A stretch of 42,137 nucleotides of DNA from IMG/VR virus record IMGVR_UViG_3300050821_004113, positions 1-42,137 of that record. One strand, written 5' to 3'. Under the pieces are notes generated by a model, which was given only the letters and a program-made list of their open reading frames with translations, did not search any database and had not been told where the DNA came from. Every line of letters begins with the position of its first letter. Within the stretch, counting starts at the first letter, position 1. The translations under genes were made by a program, and so were the position numbers. Shown here piece by piece: positions 5,643 through 38,289 of the stretch. The DNA comes from a virus.

Positions 5643-5940
5643 TAGGACTTGGACGCCAGAAGTTGTGCGGCAGAAGATCCGCACTAGTATGTTAATCAAT
5701 AGGTTGCAGAATCACGTGCTTGGTCGGCTGGAGATGACTAAGACTCAGATTCAGGCAGCTGCGATACTTTTGCGCAAGACTTTGCCAGACATGGTGGCCT
5801 CTGCGGACACAGCCCGTCCGCTTGACCGGATGAACGATGAACAGCTCATTGCCGCCGTTAACTCCATTAGAGGCTACCTCGCTACTGAAGCAACTGGAGA
5901 CGGAACTGCAGCGTCGGCAGAGCGAGCGGCGCTTAACTGA
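5629..5940 (+). CDS. Terminase small subunit (103 aa)
   Basis: ATG 5629. The protein is an N-terminal DNA-binding helical region, WTPEVVRQKIRTSMLINRLQNHVLG, then MTKTQIQAAAILLRKTLPDM, a pattern I know from small terminase-like phage proteins. It is followed by an acidic/alanine-rich tail. It lies immediately upstream of, and overlaps by 104 nt, the large subunit. In this role it recognises the packaging start and regulates the motor. The longer frame from ATG 5581 begins on the parS-like palindrome and lacks a Shine-Dalgarno. Confidence 0.78.
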   Translation: MAARNRTWTPEVVRQKIRTSMLINRLQNHVLGRLEMTKTQIQAAAILLRKTLPDMVASADTARPLDRMNDEQLIAAVNSIRGYLATEATGDGTAASAERAALN

Positions 5941-7276
5941 CTATCGACCGTATCTTAAGCAGGCAGAGTTCCATGCTGCGGGAGCCACTTACCGGCAAAG
6001 GCTGCTCATGGCGGCGAATCAGGTCGGTAAGACATTGGCTGCTGGGTTCGAGCTTGGAATGCATACCACGGGTATGTATCCGGATTGGTGGCGGGGTCGC
6101 AGATTCGACAAAGCCACCACCTGGTGGGCTGCGGGGGTAACGGGTGAGAGTACACGGGATAACCCGCAGAGGATTCTCCTCGGGCGTCCAGGGGCGTGGG
6201 GGACTGGAGCCATCCCTAAAGTCAATATCGTGGACACTTCTTCAGCAAGAGGCCTTGCAGATGCTGTGGACACAATACGAATTAGGCATCTTGACGGCGA
6301 AACGTCTTCCATACAGCTCAAGTCGTATGAGAAGGGCCGCGAGAAGTGGCAGGGCGAAACGCTTACTGGAGGGGTCTGGTTTGATGAAGAACCCCCCCAA
6401 GCGATTTACACTGAAGGACTGACGCGTACCAATGCCACCGGAGGCATGACGCTCATCACCTTTACGCCTTTATTGGGCATGACCGAGGTCGTGAGACGCT
6501 TCTTGCTTGAGCCATCCGCAGATTGTCATGTGACGACAATGACCATCGAGGATGCCGAGCACTACACGCCAGAACAGCGTCTGGCGATTATCAATACCTA
6601 TGCTCCTTATGAGCGGGATGCCAGAACACAAGGCATTCCACAGTTGGGATCTGGTCGAGTATTCCCGCTAGGGCAGAATGAGATCGAATGCGAACCATTC
6701 GCTATCCCGAAAGAATGGGTGCAGATCTGCGGCTTGGACTTCGGTTGGGATCATCCCAGTGCAGGCATACGCATGGCATGGGATCGGGACGCCGATATCC
6801 TGTATGTCATCGCAGCCCACCGAGCTCGTGAACAGACGCCGTTGATGTTTGCAGGCGCCGTAAGACCTTGGGGTGGCTGGCTCCCCTGGGCATGGCCGCA
6901 TGATGGTCTGCAGCACGATAAGGGTTCAGGAGAACAACTCGCCAAACAGTACCGGGATCATGGTCTGAACATGTGCAAGGTCAAGGCGAGCTTTCCAGAC
7001 GGCACGAATGGGTTTGAAGCAGGCATCTCTGAGATGCTGGATCGCATGGAGACTGGCCGCTTAAAGGTTTTCAAGCATTTGTCGCAATGGTTTGAGGAAT
7101 TCAATCTGTATCACCGCAAGGAGGGGCTCATAGTGAAGCTGAATGACGATCTGATCTCGGCCACTCGCTACGCCATGATGATGAGACGGTATGCAGTGAC
7201 GCAGTTTCAGTCGATCAGGAATGTGCCTGAGTTTCAATCTCGGGCCCGGGCCGATGGCTTGAGTTGGATGGAGTGA
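5837..7276 (+). CDS. terL: Terminase large subunit (479 aa)
   Basis: ATPase domain: a Walker A-like AANQVGKT at residues ~59-66 and a Walker B VWFDEEP at ~180-186. Nuclease domain (RNase H-like): GLDFGWDHP (D301), HDGLQHDKG (D356) and LNDDLISATRYAM (D437/D438) supply the metal-binding acids. The length is normal. ATP-driven packaging of DNA through the portal and cutting of the concatemer are the known roles of the family. The start at 5837 gives a long overlap with the small subunit, but the N-terminal helix (LLKQLETELQRRQSERRL) is family-like, so the true start is at or close to this. Confidence 0.93.
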   Translation: MNSSLPPLTPLEATSLLKQLETELQRRQSERRLTDYRPYLKQAEFHAAGATYRQRLLMAANQVGKTLAAGFELGMHTTGMYPDWWRGRRFDKATTWWAAGVTGESTRDNPQRILLGRPGAWGTGAIPKVNIVDTSSARGLADAVDTIRIRHLDGETSSIQLKSYEKGREKWQGETLTGGVWFDEEPPQAIYTEGLTRTNATGGMTLITFTPLLGMTEVVRRFLLEPSADCHVTTMTIEDAEHYTPEQRLAIINTYAPYERDARTQGIPQLGSGRVFPLGQNEIECEPFAIPKEWVQICGLDFGWDHPSAGIRMAWDRDADILYVIAAHRAREQTPLMFAGAVRPWGGWLPWAWPHDGLQHDKGSGEQLAKQYRDHGLNMCKVKASFPDGTNGFEAGISEMLDRMETGRLKVFKHLSQWFEEFNLYHRKEGLIVKLNDDLISATRYAMMMRRYAVTQFQSIRNVPEFQSRARADGLSWME

Positions 7277-7612: not shown

Positions 7613-9739
7613 ATGCCGACATTACCGGCTGAATCCCATCAGCCAGCCACCGATAAGAAACAAATCTTTGCCGAAGCCGCCGAACGCCTGCGCATTGCTC
7701 AGGAAGCCGAAGGGCTAAACCGCCAAAAAGCGGTGATCGATCTTGAGTTCGAGGACGGCCAGCAGTGGCCTGATGACCTTTACAACCTGAGAAAGGTCAA
7801 CAAACGCCCCACACTTACGATCAACCACACCCGCGCAATGGTGAAGCGGGTTGTGAACAACATGCGAGAGCAGAGACCTCGCATCAAGGTTCACGCTGTC
7901 GGCCAGGGAGCTGACAAAGACATCGCCCAGAAGCTCCAAGGCATTATCCGCCACATCGAATACAGATCCTCCGAGGCTGTCGGATATGACCTAGGAGGAG
8001 AGTTCGCAGTCAAGATGGGGTGGGGCTACTGGCGGGTGGGATCAGCTTATATCGATGATATGAGCTTTGAGCAGGAACTGGAGATCTGGCCGGTTTACAA
8101 CCCCTTCACCGTATACATGGATCCTGCGGCCCGGGACTGTACGGCTTCGGATGCTGAATGGTGCATCATCTCGGAGGAGATGAAACGTTCGGAGTTCGAA
8201 CGAAAGTTCCCCAGGACCATTGAAACAGAGTGGACCGAAGGGGCAGCAGGGGATCAGCAAGCCTCCCAATGGCAGACAAAGGAGATGATCCGCTTAGCGG
8301 AGTATTTCCGATTCGTCAAACGAGAGGATGAGCTGATCAAGCTCTCAGACGGCCGGAGCATGTATGACAGCGAGTATCGGCGGAAGTCTGATGTATTTTC
8401 CGCTGCCGGCCTTACAAGAGCTAAGGACCTCAGGGGGCGTGACATTCGGCGGCCTACTTATCGAAAGCAGCTAGAATGGCACCGCCTTAACGGAAGCCAG
8501 GTTGTGGAGTCAGTGGAACTGCCTGGCAAGTGGATCCCGGTCATACGATGCGAAGGTAATACGCTTGACCTGAACGGACAGATCCGCAGGAAGGGCATGG
8601 TCCGGGACATGATGGATGTCGGCCGGATGTACAACTATTGGCGCACCTGCGAGACGGAGATGATTGCTCTGGCTCCCCGGGCACCTTGGATTGGTACCGC
8701 ACAGCAGTTCCAGGGACACCCTGAGTGGAACGATGCCAATCAGAAGCCTTACAGCAAGCTTACCTATAATGCGGACTTTTTAGAGCAGCCAGACGGCTCG
8801 AAAGTCCCATTGCCCGCTCCGCAGCGGGTTGAGACTGTAGCGGTGCCGGCAGGATTCGTGCAGGCGGCTGAGTCTGCGATGAAAGACATGATGATCCTGG
8901 CGGGAATGCCGCATGAGCCTGGCCAGGATGCTCCTGGAGTAGTGGTGAGTGGAAAAGCCTTACGACAGCGCCAAGCGATCAGCGATATCTCCCACTTCCA
9001 GTACTACGACAATCAGACCCGCTCGATTGCGCAGACTGGTCGAGTGCTCCTGGACCTTATACCCCAGTACTACTCTGAAGAAAGAATGCAGAGAATCGTC
9101 GGTGATGATGGTGTGCCTTCCACCGTTCAGATCAACTCCCCCGGAATCGATGCCATCAAGAACGATCTATCGGTGGGACGCTACGATGTCGTCATGGACA
9201 CAGGTCCAGGATATGAGACCAAACGACAAGAAGAAGCCGAACAGACCGTAGATTTATTGAAGATAGGACCTTTAGCTGAGGCTGCTGTAAAGGCCGCACC
9301 GGATCTGATCTTCCGGGCCTTTGGCATGGATGAGATCGCGGATCGCATCGCCATTACGGTCCCAGAAGGCATGCAAAAGGCACTGGAAGGCATGCCGCAG
9401 GATGCGCAGAACATCATCAAAGGTGTGATGCAGCAGCTGCAGGTAGCCAACCAGCATATCCAGCAATTGGAACTGGAGCAGAAATACGGACTTGGCAAAG
9501 CGCAGATTGCCGCCAATGCCAAGGTTCACGACACCCAAGTGGATGCTGCGACGAAAGTGCACGACACCAGCACTCGCGCAGCAACAGAGATCGACAAAGC
9601 CCATATCGGAGCCCAAGCAAGCATTGCAGTGGCTGAGATAGGGCAGGCCGGAAAGTTGATGGACTCACACGTTAAGGGCAAGTACGCCCAGGAATCTGAA
9701 AAAGCAGCAGCAAAGGCCGAATCCAAATCAAACCCTTAA
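7613..9739 (+). CDS. Portal protein, P22 type (708 aa)
   Basis: The size is close to P22 gp1 (725 aa). The N-terminal region has the P22-portal hallmarks: DLEFEDGQQWPDDLYNLR, RPTLTINHTRAMVKRVVNN, EYRSSEAVGYDLGGEFAVKMGWGYWRV and YNPFTVYMDPAARD. The C-terminal ~110 residues form a long helix rich in Gln/Ala/Lys (barrel-like), with repeated KVHDT segments at ~640-655. It forms the dodecameric DNA channel at one head vertex. The position after terL and before scaffold and coat is canonical. Confidence 0.92.
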   Translation: MPTLPAESHQPATDKKQIFAEAAERLRIAQEAEGLNRQKAVIDLEFEDGQQWPDDLYNLRKVNKRPTLTINHTRAMVKRVVNNMREQRPRIKVHAVGQGADKDIAQKLQGIIRHIEYRSSEAVGYDLGGEFAVKMGWGYWRVGSAYIDDMSFEQELEIWPVYNPFTVYMDPAARDCTASDAEWCIISEEMKRSEFERKFPRTIETEWTEGAAGDQQASQWQTKEMIRLAEYFRFVKREDELIKLSDGRSMYDSEYRRKSDVFSAAGLTRAKDLRGRDIRRPTYRKQLEWHRLNGSQVVESVELPGKWIPVIRCEGNTLDLNGQIRRKGMVRDMMDVGRMYNYWRTCETEMIALAPRAPWIGTAQQFQGHPEWNDANQKPYSKLTYNADFLEQPDGSKVPLPAPQRVETVAVPAGFVQAAESAMKDMMILAGMPHEPGQDAPGVVVSGKALRQRQAISDISHFQYYDNQTRSIAQTGRVLLDLIPQYYSEERMQRIVGDDGVPSTVQINSPGIDAIKNDLSVGRYDVVMDTGPGYETKRQEEAEQTVDLLKIGPLAEAAVKAAPDLIFRAFGMDEIADRIAITVPEGMQKALEGMPQDAQNIIKGVMQQLQVANQHIQQLELEQKYGLGKAQIAANAKVHDTQVDAATKVHDTSTRAATEIDKAHIGAQASIAVAEIGQAGKLMDSHVKGKYAQESEKAAAKAESKSNP

Positions 9740-11261: not shown

Positions 11262-11840
11262 ATGGTGTTAACAGCAGCGCAAAAGAGCGCTCGGTATCGG
11301 GCCAAGGATGTAGAGGCCTATAGGGCACGCAAGAATGCCCTAGTCAAGCTTCCACATCACAAAGAACAGCGGCGCTTATATGCCAAACAGTGGCGTGACA
11401 GGAATAAAAAACCTCGTAAGCCACGGCCGCGCAAGTGGACAGATGAGCAGCTCATGGAGCGCAAGCGAGAATACGCGCGCAAACATGCCGCCGCGAATCG
11501 AGAAAAGCTGCGCTTAAGAAGCGCGTTTTATTATCAGAAATACAAAGCGGATGGCACGATTTTGGCGCGCCAACGCAAGTATTCTCTGAAGAAGAAGTAC
11601 GGGATAACGCCTGAGCAGTATCAAGAAATGCTGCTCAAGCAAGATTCAAAATGCGCCATTTGTCTCGGAACAATGGTGACTTCTGGAGCACGACACATGC
11701 ATGTGGATCATTGCCATGAAACTGGCAGGATCAGAGGAATTTTGTGTCATGTGTGCAATACGAAACTTGGATGGTTTGAGCGCTTTAGGGCGCAGATAAA
11801 GAGGTATTTGGATGGCAAAGCGAGCCTTGAAGGCAGTTGA
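11262..11840 (+). CDS. Endonuclease VII-type HNH homing endonuclease (192 aa)
   Basis: Basic N-terminal two-thirds (many R/K, repeated helix motifs around KREYARKHAAANREK), then the Endonuclease_7 domain: YGITPEQYQEMLLKQDSKCAIC (C131, C134), HVDHCHETGRIRGI (H150, H152) and CHVCNTKLG (C162, C165), which bind zinc and form the beta-beta-alpha-Me site. It lies between the glycosyltransferase and the methyltransferase and overlaps the latter by 29 nt, as a freestanding mobile endonuclease would. It has its own strong Shine-Dalgarno inside a hairpin and a possible promoter upstream. Confidence 0.85.
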   Translation: MVLTAAQKSARYRAKDVEAYRARKNALVKLPHHKEQRRLYAKQWRDRNKKPRKPRPRKWTDEQLMERKREYARKHAAANREKLRLRSAFYYQKYKADGTILARQRKYSLKKKYGITPEQYQEMLLKQDSKCAICLGTMVTSGARHMHVDHCHETGRIRGILCHVCNTKLGWFERFRAQIKRYLDGKASLEGS

Positions 11841-12384
11841 AGTTCAGGAAGACATCAAACTTGATTTGGGGTGCGGGCCGAGAAAAAAGGGGAATGATTG
11901 GATTGGCGTTGATCGCCGTAAGTTCGACGGCGTGGATATCGTCCATGACCTTCTGAAGACTCCCTGGCCGTGGAAAGACGGATCTATTGCCGAGATCCAC
12001 ATGTCCCATACGATGGAACACTTCACCGGCCGTGAACGGGTGAAGATCGTCAATGAGATGTATCGAGTGATGCGAGTGGGAGCGAAAGCCACCGTCATCA
12101 CCCCTCACTGGTGCTCAAACCGCGCTTATGGGGATTTCACTCACCAGTGGCCGCCGGTGTCGGAGATGTGGTTCTACTACCTTTCCCAGAAATGGCGGGC
12201 TGAGAACGCCCCGGACAATGACATCAAATGGAATCCCGATGGATATTCATGCGACTTTGAATGCTCATGGGGCTATTCGATTCATCCCACCTTTGTGGTG
12301 AAGAATCAGGAAGCCCAGCAGCACGCCATGCAGTTCTACAAAGAAGCTGTACAGGACATGACCTGTACCTGGGTAAAGAAGTAA
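11812..12384 (+). CDS. Class I SAM-dependent methyltransferase (190 aa)
   Basis: Motif I LDLGCGP at residues ~18-24, the acidic ribose-binding GVD at ~32-34, then HDLLKTPWPWKDGS, SHTMEHF, NEMYRVMRVGAKATVITPHW and YGDFTHQWPPV. This is the short phage/methyltransferase-11-like type. The target could be sugar, protein or small molecule; it has no DNA-methylase NPPY motif. Next to a glycosyltransferase, methylation of a virion-linked glycan is plausible. ATG 11812 has AGAGG upstream. Confidence 0.82.
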   Translation: MAKRALKAVEVQEDIKLDLGCGPRKKGNDWIGVDRRKFDGVDIVHDLLKTPWPWKDGSIAEIHMSHTMEHFTGRERVKIVNEMYRVMRVGAKATVITPHWCSNRAYGDFTHQWPPVSEMWFYYLSQKWRAENAPDNDIKWNPDGYSCDFECSWGYSIHPTFVVKNQEAQQHAMQFYKEAVQDMTCTWVKK

Positions 12385-13358
12385 TGGGTAAAGTCATCAC
12401 ATCCAATGGATTGCCGGAATTCATCGAAAAAGGCACCGTCACTCACATCCCCGATCATAAGCCTTCCAAGGAAGCCCCACCGCTTGAGGTGAAGAAGGAT
12501 CCACCGATAGTAGATATCGGCGAGAAGGTGGCTGAGAAACCTTTGGAAGTGGATCCCAAGCTTGAAAAGCAGATCGAGTCAGAAGAGACGGTTCCGACTC
12601 TCTCTGAGGATTCACGCAAGTACGTGAACAAACAGCATCGCTTGCGCAAGGAAGCCGAAGAAGAGGCTGCGCTGTCGGAGTCTTTGGCGCGTGAGCAGTT
12701 CAATCGCGCGACATTGGCTGAAGAGAAAGCGCGAGCTTTGGAGGCTGAGCTTTCTCAATTGAAAAAGCCCCCTGAGACTAAGGTTGAGGAACCGAAGTTC
12801 CCCCTGGCCCAGGATTTCGTCAAAGACAACAAATTCGACCAGGACGCTTATCAGAAGGCCGTCACGGATTACAACAAAGCCGAAACCAAACGGCTTTTGG
12901 ACAATGAGCGCCAGGAACGCGAAGTGGCGCAGATCAGAGCGAAAGTTGAAGCATCGTGGGATGTGGCGCGAAAGGCCCATCCTGATTTCGATGAAGTGAG
13001 AGCGAAGGTTGAAGGTACTCCAGCGGATATGGTTCCGCAGTTCGTCAGAGAATACATCGTAGACAGCGATCTATCGGGTGAAGTGGCCTACTACTTGTGG
13101 ACCCACGCCGATGAGACGCAGCGAATTGCAGGCCTCTCGCCCATCCGCGGTATCGCGGAGTTGGGCAAGATTCAGGCAAAACTGGCCACAGCGGAGCAGA
13201 AGGCTCCGATTGTGGAAGTCAAGCCTGAACGTCCCGGAGCACCCCCTCCCATTACCCCGATCTCCACTGCAGGGGCTGGAACTGTAAATACGGATCCTGC
13301 CAAAATGTCATTTGCAGAACTTCGGGCTTATCGGAAGGAAGAGCGCCGAAAGAAATAG
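12384..13358 (+). CDS. Scaffolding protein (324 aa)
   Basis: ATG 12384 within TAATG; the frame running upstream to 12261 is antecedent to the real start. It is highly charged and helical: a Pro/Glu-rich N-terminus, a long coiled coil at ~80-145 (HRLRKEAEEEAALSESLARE...), a DFVKDNKFDQDAYQKAVTDY segment, and a basic C-terminal end (FAELRAYRKEERRKK) as used by scaffolds to bind coat. Position just before the coat gene matches P22 gene 8. Function is inferred from order and composition. Confidence 0.82.
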   Translation: MGKVITSNGLPEFIEKGTVTHIPDHKPSKEAPPLEVKKDPPIVDIGEKVAEKPLEVDPKLEKQIESEETVPTLSEDSRKYVNKQHRLRKEAEEEAALSESLAREQFNRATLAEEKARALEAELSQLKKPPETKVEEPKFPLAQDFVKDNKFDQDAYQKAVTDYNKAETKRLLDNERQEREVAQIRAKVEASWDVARKAHPDFDEVRAKVEGTPADMVPQFVREYIVDSDLSGEVAYYLWTHADETQRIAGLSPIRGIAELGKIQAKLATAEQKAPIVEVKPERPGAPPPITPISTAGAGTVNTDPAKMSFAELRAYRKEERRKK

Positions 13359-13366
13359 GCGCGGTG

Positions 13367-13390
13367 CTCCTAAATCAAACCATTTAGGAG
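13367..13390 (+). promoter_or_regulatory. Perfect hairpin containing the coat-gene ribosome-binding site
   Basis: CTCCTAAAT (13367-13375) pairs with ATTTAGGAG (13382-13390), 9 bp with a 6-nt loop. The Shine-Dalgarno AGGAG of the coat gene (ATG 13399) is the 3' end of the stem, so initiation should depend on opening it. Confidence 0.65.
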
Positions 13391-13398
13391 AACTTTTC

Positions 13399-13495
13399 AT
13401 GACTCAACAGCTACTCACCATGTCCTACATAACGAATGAATCGTTAGTAGTACTGGAGAACGAGCTGGTCATTGCGAATCGAGTTGAGCGTCAGT
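13399..13495 (+). CDS. Major coat protein, exon 1 (32 codons plus 1 base)
   Basis: ATG 13399 opens with a P22-coat-like N-terminus: QQLLTMSYITNESLVVLENE then LVIANRVERQ. In the unspliced message the next codon is TAA (13495-13497), so translation would stop at 32 residues. Spliced at T13495 the frame continues as Q-Y-S-N-E-F-A-Q-T-G-A-K-V-G, exactly the expected family sequence. The 5' exon ends in U, as group I introns require. Confidence 0.88.
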
Positions 13496-14189
13496 AAACG
13501 AACCTGCTGACATTAAATGCTGTGAACTCGGTGAAACTCTCGTGTAAACTAACGAGACAATACCGAGCCAAGGCTTTATGCAAATTTGCAGCGCTTGCGG
13601 ACTGGAAAAGTCTTTGGATGACTTCTATCGGGGAACCAGTAGAGGGAAGTCCAGAATATTCAGGGAATGCAAGGCATGCAGCATTTTGAGGGCGCGTAAG
13701 TCCTATCAGAGCAATCGGGCAGAACGCCGTAAAAAGGCTAATGCCTATATGACTGATAAGCGGCAGCGCACTAAGGATGCAGTATTCGCTGCATATGGTG
13801 GCTATGTTTGCGCATGTTGCGGTGAAACACAGAAAGAATTTCTTTCTCTGGATCACATCAATAATGATGGAAACAAGCATCGAAAAGGTATTACAGGAAA
13901 GAGGCATTTTGCCGGATTCCACACCTACTCTTGGTTAGCAAAGAATGGGTTTCCGAGTGGTTATCAGGTGTTATGCATGAACTGTAACTGGGGCAAGAGA
14001 TTCACTGGAATCTGCCCACATAAAGCAAGGTGTAACGACTATCCGCAAGGAGTAGGCTCAAGTGAGCCGAAGCGCAGCACTCCCGACCTAACTTTAGTGG
14101 TCGGGAAGAAGATATAGTCTCATCTGCATCGTGAGATGCAGTAGCCGAAAGGCAGATACCGCCCAACGAGCGGTATTGAAAGATCAATG
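13496..14189 (+). ncRNA. Group I intron (td-like, subgroup IA2 probable) in the coat gene
   Basis: 5' site: exon GTCAGT (13490-13495) pairs with GCTGAC (13506-13511), giving P1 with the required U-G wobble at the splice site. A P4/P5 region follows: CTCGGT...ACGAGACAATACCGAG (about 13527-13567). The 3' core resembles T4 td closely: ACGACTATCC-NNNN-GGAGTAGG, then TCAAGTGAGCCGAA (14036-14073), a GTCGGGA hairpin, AAGATATAGTC (about 14108-14118) and CTGCATCGTGAGATGCAG (P9-like). The intron ends in G14189 of AATG, as td does. Splicing restores the coat frame. An HNH ORF occupies the P6-side loop. Confidence 0.92.
13578..14117 (+). CDS. Intron-encoded HNH homing endonuclease (179 aa)
   Basis: N-terminal zinc finger with CSAC (4-7) and CKAC (31-34), a basic linker, then an HNH core: CACCGE, LSLDHINNDGNKHR (91-102), YSWLAKNGFPSGYQVLCMNCN (C133, C136). 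This is the common intron/phage HNH type that cuts the intronless allele to spread the intron. The last ~35 residues are read from the ribozyme core (P3/P7 region), so that part is constrained by RNA structure, not protein function. No strong Shine-Dalgarno is visible before ATG 13578. Confidence 0.88.
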   Translation: MQICSACGLEKSLDDFYRGTSRGKSRIFRECKACSILRARKSYQSNRAERRKKANAYMTDKRQRTKDAVFAAYGGYVCACCGETQKEFLSLDHINNDGNKHRKGITGKRHFAGFHTYSWLAKNGFPSGYQVLCMNCNWGKRFTGICPHKARCNDYPQGVGSSEPKRSTPDLTLVVGKKI

Positions 14190-15454
14190 ATTCAAACGAA
14201 TTCGCACAGACCGGCGCCAAAGTCGGAAATACCGTCAACATCCGCCGACCGCCTCGCTACATCGGCACCTACGGCCCTCCGCTGAACGTTGAGGATACGT
14301 TTGAGACCTACCTTCAGGTGGTGCTGAACTATCAGTTCCATGTGGATGTTCAGTTCACGACGCAGGATCTTGCTTTGAGCATGGATATGTTCAAGAAGCG
14401 GATCCTGAAGCCCCAGATCGCAACCGTGGCAAACCGTATCGATGCGGATACCGCCCAGTACTGCACCTTGAATACCGCGATCTCATTAGGGTCCCCTGGC
14501 ATTCAGCCGGCCTCCTATAAGATCTTCTCCGATGCCCGTGCAACGCTTGCAATGGAGGCGTGCCCCACGGAGGGTGAGAAGAATTGCGTACTGGATCCGA
14601 TCACCATGTCGGCGGTCACGGATTCTCAGGGCGGCAAGTTCAACCCGCAGGCCAGAATCAGCGAATACAACGAGAAGGGCCTGATTGCCAAGGAATGGGC
14701 AGGACTTGATTGGTGGGAGGATCAGAACATTCTGTCCTTCACCACTGGTGCCCAGACAGCTACGGGTGCAATCACCCTGTATGCCACGGGTGGCACCTCG
14801 GCGCTTCTGACCTCCGGGTGGGCCCAGCAGGGTGTTTTGGGCATGCAGGGCTTCACTGCATCCTCACCTGCGGTGAAGGTGGGCGACATCATCCAGCTCG
14901 CGAACGTCTATCCCGTCAATCCTCAGAACCGTCTGCAGTACGGCCGGACGCTGCGACAGTTCGTGGTTCTGCCCCCGGGTGGATTCGGAGCACCTCAGAA
15001 TGGCGCTGCGACGACTGGAATCTATTTCTCGCCCGCAACCATCCTGAATGGCACCTTCAACAATTTGACCGGCGTATACACTTCGGATGGTTCAGGCTTC
15101 GTATCGGTAACGATTGGCGGCTGCGTCATCTCCGGTGGTCAGTTCCAGAACGTGACGGCACAGCCCACTCCCACGGCGGCGGTGACGATCAACGGTGGAT
15201 CGACCTACGCATCCACTGTTACTCCTCAAGGGCTGGTATTCCACAAGTATGCCTTTGCATTGGCCTTTGCGGATCTGCCACTTCCTTCAGGGGTGGAGAT
15301 GGCGGCTCGTGCCTACGATGATGAGGATGTCGGGATGTCAATCCGCATGGTGACTCAGTATACGATTAACAATGATAGCGAACCGACTCGGGCCGACGTG
15401 TTGTACGGCCCGGCATCTTTGTATCGTGATCTGGGCATCCGGATCTGCGGCTAA
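14190..15454 (+). CDS. Major coat protein, exon 2 (P22 coat-like)
   Basis: Exon 2 starts at A14190; joined to exon 1 it gives a 453-residue protein (P22 gp5 is 430). Family features: FAQTGAKVGNTVNIRRPPRY right after the junction, then VQFTTQDLALSMDMFKKRIL and ANRIDADTAQY, and the late MAARAYDDEDVGMSIRMVTQYTINND. ATG 14318 is internal. The protein forms the icosahedral head on the scaffold. A strong terminator follows. Confidence 0.9.
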
Positions 15455-21674: not shown

Positions 21675-22166
21675 ATGACAAATTCGCTTGATTCGCTATG
21701 GAAGAAGGTGGAGAAACGCGGCCCAGATGAATGCTGGGAATGGCGCGGCTATAGGAATTTCACTACCTATGGGAAGGGCGGCTATGGCCGGATGGACTTG
21801 TTGGGCCTGAAAGGGGTTTATGTCCATCGGATTGCATATTTATCTGCCAACCCTGGAGCTTTGACGCTGAGCCGCAAGACCGATCTTCAGGTCCTGCATA
21901 AATGCGACAACCCCATTTGTTGCAACCCAGCGCATCTAATGCTTGGGACTAATGCAGACAACGTGGCAGACATGATGAATAAGGGGCGCCAGACGCGGTA
22001 CAAAAGTACCGAGTCGCCAAGAGCGAAATTTACGGAGGAAGAAGTCTTTTGGATTCGGATGGCAAAGAAATACGGCGCGACAGTGAAAGCTCTTGCGTTA
22101 CTTCATAGGGTCAGCATGTCGTGCATCAGCCATCTGCTCTATGGGCGTAGCTATCAGGATGTCTAA
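21675..22166 (+). CDS. HNH homing endonuclease with C-terminal HTH (163 aa)
   Basis: N-terminal DECWEWRGYRN and YGRMDLLGLKGVYVHRIAYL (residues ~18-55), then HNH_3 core VLHKCDNPICCNPAHLMLGTNADNVADM (73-100), and a C-terminal helix-turn-helix-like part (FTEEEVFWIRMAKKYGATVKALALLHRVSMSCISHLL). It lies exactly between the gp4-like and gp10-like genes and abuts the latter by TAATG, as a freestanding homing endonuclease would. Its leader resembles that of the 11262 gene. Confidence 0.87.
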   Translation: MTNSLDSLWKKVEKRGPDECWEWRGYRNFTTYGKGGYGRMDLLGLKGVYVHRIAYLSANPGALTLSRKTDLQVLHKCDNPICCNPAHLMLGTNADNVADMMNKGRQTRYKSTESPRAKFTEEEVFWIRMAKKYGATVKALALLHRVSMSCISHLLYGRSYQDV

Positions 22167-38214: not shown

Positions 38215-38289
38215 TGGTGACGCTAACAGGATTCGAACCTGCAACACCCCTATTATGAGTAGGATGCTCTACCGTTGAGCCATAGCGTC
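38215..38289 (-). tRNA. tRNA with CAT anticodon (Met or lysidine-type Ile), CCA encoded
   Basis: 75 nt on the minus strand. Acceptor GACGCTA/TAGCGTC, D stem GCTC/GAGC, anticodon stem TCCTA/TAGGG with loop CTCATAA, T arm GCAGG-TTCGAAT-CCTGT, discriminator A and encoded CCA. All stems pair. The CAT anticodon fits elongator Met or Ile2; the two cannot be told apart here by eye. Confidence 0.95.

Follow-up and report, generated by a model that had tools for sequence, protein, structure and literature searches.

The major coat protein gene of the phage genome analysed here (hereafter the window, the whole 42,137-nucleotide stretch at positions 1 to 42,137 of IMG/VR record IMGVR_UViG_3300050821_004113) is split by a group I intron of 694 nt that carries an HNH endonuclease-like ORF. 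This was what the original prediction had proposed from the letters of the sequence, and every element that it named was found at its place; its range, 13399-15454, holds for the whole split gene, but the intron itself occupies 13496-14189. The intron very probably splices from the coat mRNA, with probable HNH-mediated homing into intronless alleles, and we infer splicing in cells, endonuclease cleavage and homing from what is known of this intron family.

The interrupted coat gene

The window is a tailed-phage genome in which terminase, portal, scaffold, coat and head-closure genes follow in order. The features of this region are as follows:

5837-7276: terminase
7613-9739: portal
12261-13358: scaffold
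13399-13495, + strand: coat exon 1 (97 nt; codons 1-32 and the first base of codon 33; ends CAG-T)
13496-14189, + strand: group I intron (694 nt; IA-like, with P7.1/P7.2 between P7 and P3; Rfam Intron_gpI and covariation across relatives)
13578-14117, + strand: HNH homing-endonuclease-like ORF (179 aa; phrog_2255 HNH endonuclease)
14190-15454, + strand: coat exon 2, to the stop codon (begins ATTCAAACGAATTC)

Read from the coat start at 13399 through the unspliced sequence, codon 33 is TAA and the frame closes after 32 codons. Joining 13495 to 14190 gave an open frame of 453 codons (...VERQ-YSNEFAQTGAKVG...), the product of which matched PF11651 P22_CoatProtein (E=2.8e-34) and the phrog_283 major head protein (E=5e-62, spanning residues 1-453), while residues 1-32, encoded by exon 1, aligned to intronless coat relatives. 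With the match extending over the product length, the interrupted gene is that of a P22-type major coat protein. An intein would be open in frame with its host protein; here an in-frame TAA stands at the insertion point. Direct reading thus confirmed the predicted CAG-T exon end, the following in-frame TAA, the P1 pairing of GTCAGT with GCTGAC and the 13495-14190 join.

Anatomy of the intron

The elements of the intron were assigned as follows:

13490-13511, + strand: P1, exon GTCAGT (13490-13495) with guide GCTGAC (13506-13511); U.G wobble at the 5' splice site
13518-13524, + strand: P3 5' strand TGCTGTG, pairing with CGCAGCA at 14073-14079 (sequence reading, covariation)
13527-13567, + strand: P4-P5 (CTCGGT/ACCGAG; TCTCGT/ACGAGA; sequence and Rfam alignment)
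13573-14026, + strand: P6a stem, GCTTT (13573-13577) with AAAGC (14022-14026); the ORF starts in the P6a loop (sequence reading)
14037-14041, + strand: P7 5' strand GACTA, pairing with TAGTC at 14115-14119 (covariation)
14055-14068, + strand: P7.2 hairpin GGCTC-AAGT-GAGCC (sequence, alignment)
14081-14106, + strand: P8 hairpin TCCCGACC/GGTCGGGA (sequence)
14125-14140, + strand: P9 hairpin TGCATC/GATGCA (covariation)
14189, + strand: terminal G of the intron, 3' splice site (the junction restores the frame and conserved residues)

Both P7 strands are contained in the td-like core motifs ACGACTATCC (14035) and AGATATAGTC (14110), and the interval between P7 and P3 holds two hairpins, at about 14041-14052 and 14055-14068, which were aligned in 19 introns. 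By these P7.1 and P7.2 hairpins, rather than by formal subgroup typing, the intron is IA-like. The T4 td intron is a group IA2 intron in the thymidylate synthase gene, with the ORF of I-TevI, a GIY-YIG endonuclease, in its P6a loop. The window intron resembles it in the IA-type core with P7.1/P7.2 and in the location of the ORF in the P6a loop, but differs in the host gene and in the endonuclease, these being coat and HNH, respectively. All related introns that were delimited end in G. The P10 pairing of the window intron looks weak, with 3 bp by eye compared with the 6 bp (TTGAAT/ATTCAA) of the intron in the relative L050. Judged by the sequence of its core, the U.G pair of P1, the terminal G and the in-phase junction, the segment 13496-14189 is a group I intron.

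Covariation, covariance models and alternative readings of the insert

For the covariation counts, helix strands were assigned by hand from fixed motifs. P1 was paired in 88/96 cells, and its terminal U.G was present in all 16 related introns, at differing sites and with differing P1 sequences. P3 was paired in 129 of the 130 cells of 19 introns, with compensatory changes at four of its seven positions; P7 was paired in 90/90 cells, with a concerted two-pair switch from GACTA/TAGTC to GATCA/TGATC in four relatives; and P9 was paired in 109/109 cells, with many compensatory changes.

A match to the Rfam group I model, for which the original prediction had suggested a search, was also detected, below the gathering score: in a permissive search of 951 nt, Intron_gpI matched over the full model with 39.5 bits (E=2e-8), the gathering score being 50. 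When the whole window was searched at the gathering score, the intron was missed and nothing but tRNA was reported, probably because the ORF in the P6a loop puts hundreds of bases inside the model. In the intronless loci, 147 kb in total, Rfam detected no intron. A calibrated model of the 3' core gave 94.8 bits (E=1.8e-20) for the window intron, which was itself in the training set, and across 775 kb around the coat genes of the clade its matches at E<0.01 were coat introns only.

One different reading is that a free-standing HNH gene broke the coat gene, which would now either be dead or yield two proteins. Phages are known to have split essential genes, and exon 2 contains internal GTG starts, e.g. 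at 14318. Against this stand the complete, covarying catalytic core on either side of the ORF, the pairing of P1 with the exon and an exact, in-phase junction; exon 1 by itself encodes only 32 residues, and the rest of the coat frame is open and conserved. We consider this reading highly improbable. A second one, that of a degenerate group I intron that does not splice or of an assembly chimera, would be in line with the score under the Rfam gathering score, the weak P10 and the metagenomic origin of the contig. It is equally improbable in our judgement, as the core helices are all intact, the HNH ORF is open, and the coat gene would be lost if the intron did not splice. A one-off assembly error is unlikely because the same intron is present in a second, separately assembled contig (99.93% identity and 11 mismatches over 14.9 kb).

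The reading that we favour is that of an active group I intron. The transcript would fold into P1-P9, guanosine would attack after U13495 at the P1 U.G pair, and exon 1 would then attack after G14189, yielding a joined mRNA for the 453-aa coat protein. Since translation of the unspliced mRNA from the coat start would end after 32 residues, head formation would need splicing and, with no full coat protein predicted from the unspliced message, splicing would have to be efficient in late infection. Few late proteins are expressed as strongly as the coat protein, so that with an intron in its gene the entire supply of heads would hinge on a ribozyme, and splicing efficiency would become a direct fitness trait.

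Intronless alleles and different introns at one site

The survey of coat alleles covered the 80 nearest coat loci in IMG/VR, 76 of which were complete at the 5' end. Intronless relatives, which the original prediction had suggested looking for, were abundant: 71 of these 76 loci were uninterrupted, and five were interrupted (L002, which is nearly the window virus, L039, L050, L052 and L074). Intron presence was patchy among coats that are 67-83% identical. None of the relatives seen carried the insert in frame in its coat protein, the finding that would have spoken against an intron.

Introns of 202 nt in L039 and of 260 nt in L050/L052 follow the same base as in the window and share its P1, but both are ORF-less and have different cores. 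A 718-nt HNH-bearing intron with the P1 of the window (GTCAGT/GCTGAC) lies at the corresponding base of L235, the coat of which is only 33% identical. One exact coat site thus hosts four different introns beside empty alleles, which provides a natural test of homing and replacement. Sliding exon identity between the window and the same-site intron alleles L039 and L050 showed no rise around the site, so that no trace of recent gene conversion is visible among the three. Apparent second coat pieces in L147, L204, L206 and L213 were chance local matches and not introns, and matches to the P1-signature pattern in L085 and L087 were likewise due to chance, neither being a coat gene. We name no host, because the bacterial genome contigs gave no relative of the window coat protein and a single distant HNH match.

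The HNH ORF and probable intron mobility

The intron ORF (13578-14117) matched the HNH endonuclease families phrog_2255 (E=1.5e-15) and phrog_1035 (2.4e-10), and no Pfam family at E<=0.1. By reading, it contains the motifs CxxC ... DHINNDG ... CMNCN. Its last ~30 codons run through the catalytic core, and its stop codon TAG lies inside the P7 3' strand. The family match and the metal-binding and catalytic motifs indicate that the ORF probably encodes an HNH homing endonuclease, the activity and target of which are predicted. Three more endonuclease-like genes, all free-standing, were found in the window (T5orf172/MUG113 at 2378-2665, endonuclease VII at 11262-11840 and an HNH_3 type at 21675-22166), making four with the intron ORF.

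In a mixed infection, the HNH protein would probably cut intronless coat alleles near the site, and repair would copy the intron in; the intron would thus persist by homing into such alleles. It might instead splice yet no longer be mobile, the HNH ORF being a passenger under vertical inheritance. Splicing and homing are separable, exon identity is not raised around the site, and the HNH proteins mostly group by insertion site: in the HNH-domain tree the proteins at coat base 81 form one group (99/98), and the window protein and that of the same-site L235 join weakly (40/82), deeper branches being poorly supported. The open ORF with its CxxC and DHINNDG motifs, the patchy presence described above and the HNH relatives found in capsid genes whose products are quite different argue against loss of mobility, which we regard as unlikely. 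The tree itself fits endonucleases that are tied to sites with occasional shifts, without proving it.

Introns at other coat sites and in other capsid genes

Introns were found at five coat sites besides that of the window. HNH introns lie at coat base 53 (L094, L095, L099, L101-L103 and L151) and at coat base 81 (L089, L090, L092 and L093), and L082 (GenBank MW202674) has a coat intron at base 255. The intron at base 135 of L074 is 82% identical in sequence to the L050 intron, and a second intron lies near codon 434 of the same gene; two introns within one capsid gene were also seen in L107 and L091. Among capsid genes of the N4-gp56 type (PF13252), six further HNH loci are introns, three of the six having been checked against Pfam, and L104 apparently has another, by eye. 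An intron also lies near the start of an N4-gp56 type capsid gene in GenBank MW202512.

The intron-split capsid gene of MW202674.1 (L082, 3001-4516) is annotated as two P22 coat entries and a hypothetical one, and that of MW202512.1 (L272, 2750-4447) as an 'icea protein' and a short major capsid protein. Apparently, these coat genes are listed as fragments since their introns were unrecognised; where the major capsid protein serves as a survey marker, such genes would be missed or truncated. Introns with the core motif used for sampling below were also observed directly 5' of SU10-type major capsid exons (L306, L322, L329, L337 and others), often with a head scaffolding gene upstream.

Capsid genes as a proposed intron habitat

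Among 48 HNH relatives, 19 had a core recognised by the model or were the window's own twin; major capsid genes house 18 of these 19, the exception being L110. We rejected a strictly capsid-specific HNH lineage, given the similar intron of L110 in a gene that looks phoH-like by eye. At 2700-3450 of L110, the related HNH ORF of the group I intron takes a different position in the core, and the phoH-like gene also seems, by eye, to bear an intein.

From the intron side, 80 contigs were taken by a 23-base core motif. This sample is biased, since the motif came from an alignment of mostly capsid introns, and it includes some duplicate contigs; its proportions are indicative only and do not stand for all phage introns. 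A P22- or N4-type capsid exon adjoins the intron in 13/80 contigs, and 10 more have a downstream exon matching a different major head protein family, with 3 further by tally, so that a major head protein exon adjoins in at least 26/80 of this motif-biased sample. The other exons included 8 of DNA polymerase, 3 of RNA polymerase and 2 of ribonucleotide reductase.

The original prediction had called a coat-gene site less usual, and this part needs correcting. In the biased core-motif sample of environmental phage contigs, introns adjoin capsid exons more often than polymerase or nucleotide-reductase exons, and capsid introns have been published. The major capsid gene of LittleE, a cluster J mycobacteriophage, has a probable group I intron, with splicing shown by RT-PCR and protein N-terminal sequence (PMC3706429). 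As in the window, exon 1 ends in U, the intron ends in G and an endonuclease ORF lies inside it; set beside the window by description, LittleE differs in its HK97-like capsid with a delta domain, its length of 819 bp and its LAGLIDADG-related ORF on the opposite strand (PMC3706429). The same paper also cites a group I intron in the structural capsid gene of the lactococcal phage Tuc2009, which is likened to ours by the description given there (PMC3706429). These were the two published capsid introns retrieved by a search of the open-access literature, which returned none on P22- or N4-type capsid genes. Homing-endonuclease-bearing, self-splicing introns, with RNA data in support of the splicing, also occur in essential genes of the phages ICP1, in tape measure and terminase genes (PMC10448857), and Jug (PMC12363816); the host genes named there are tape measure, terminase, nrdD and DNA polymerase, and not the major coat gene (PMC10448857, PMC12363816).

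Capsid-gene group I introns are thus already known, and what deserves further attention is the repeated targeting of capsid genes by several intron types at many sites. With many sites in several capsid gene families, these genes look like a favourite intron target rather than an odd one. A broader proposal, to which we give an even chance, is that major capsid genes are a main home of one branch of phage IA introns, that a related HNH set carried introns, or was carried by them, into several of at least six P22-type coat intron sites and about seven N4-gp56 sites, and that different intron types share a site in different phages. If this is true, the textbook homes of phage introns (td, nrd and polymerases) would reflect which phages were cultured first.

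Other features of the window

A single tRNA with a CAT anticodon lies at 38215-38289 on the minus strand. Tandem 12-bp repeats of one kind occur at both contig ends (1-191 and 41981-42135), in minus-strand frames encoding DSVGxSV-type repeats, and the genome is probably circular or permuted, with the contig ends falling inside a single repeat gene. Upstream of the coat gene, a hairpin at 13367-13390 (CTCCTAAAT..ATTTAGGAG) masks the ribosome-binding site and may control coat translation. Among 67 distinct upstream regions in the window's clade, 44 have such a stem of 6 bp or more, in sequences that vary with compensating changes, compared with 7.2 expected from shuffled 5' arms.
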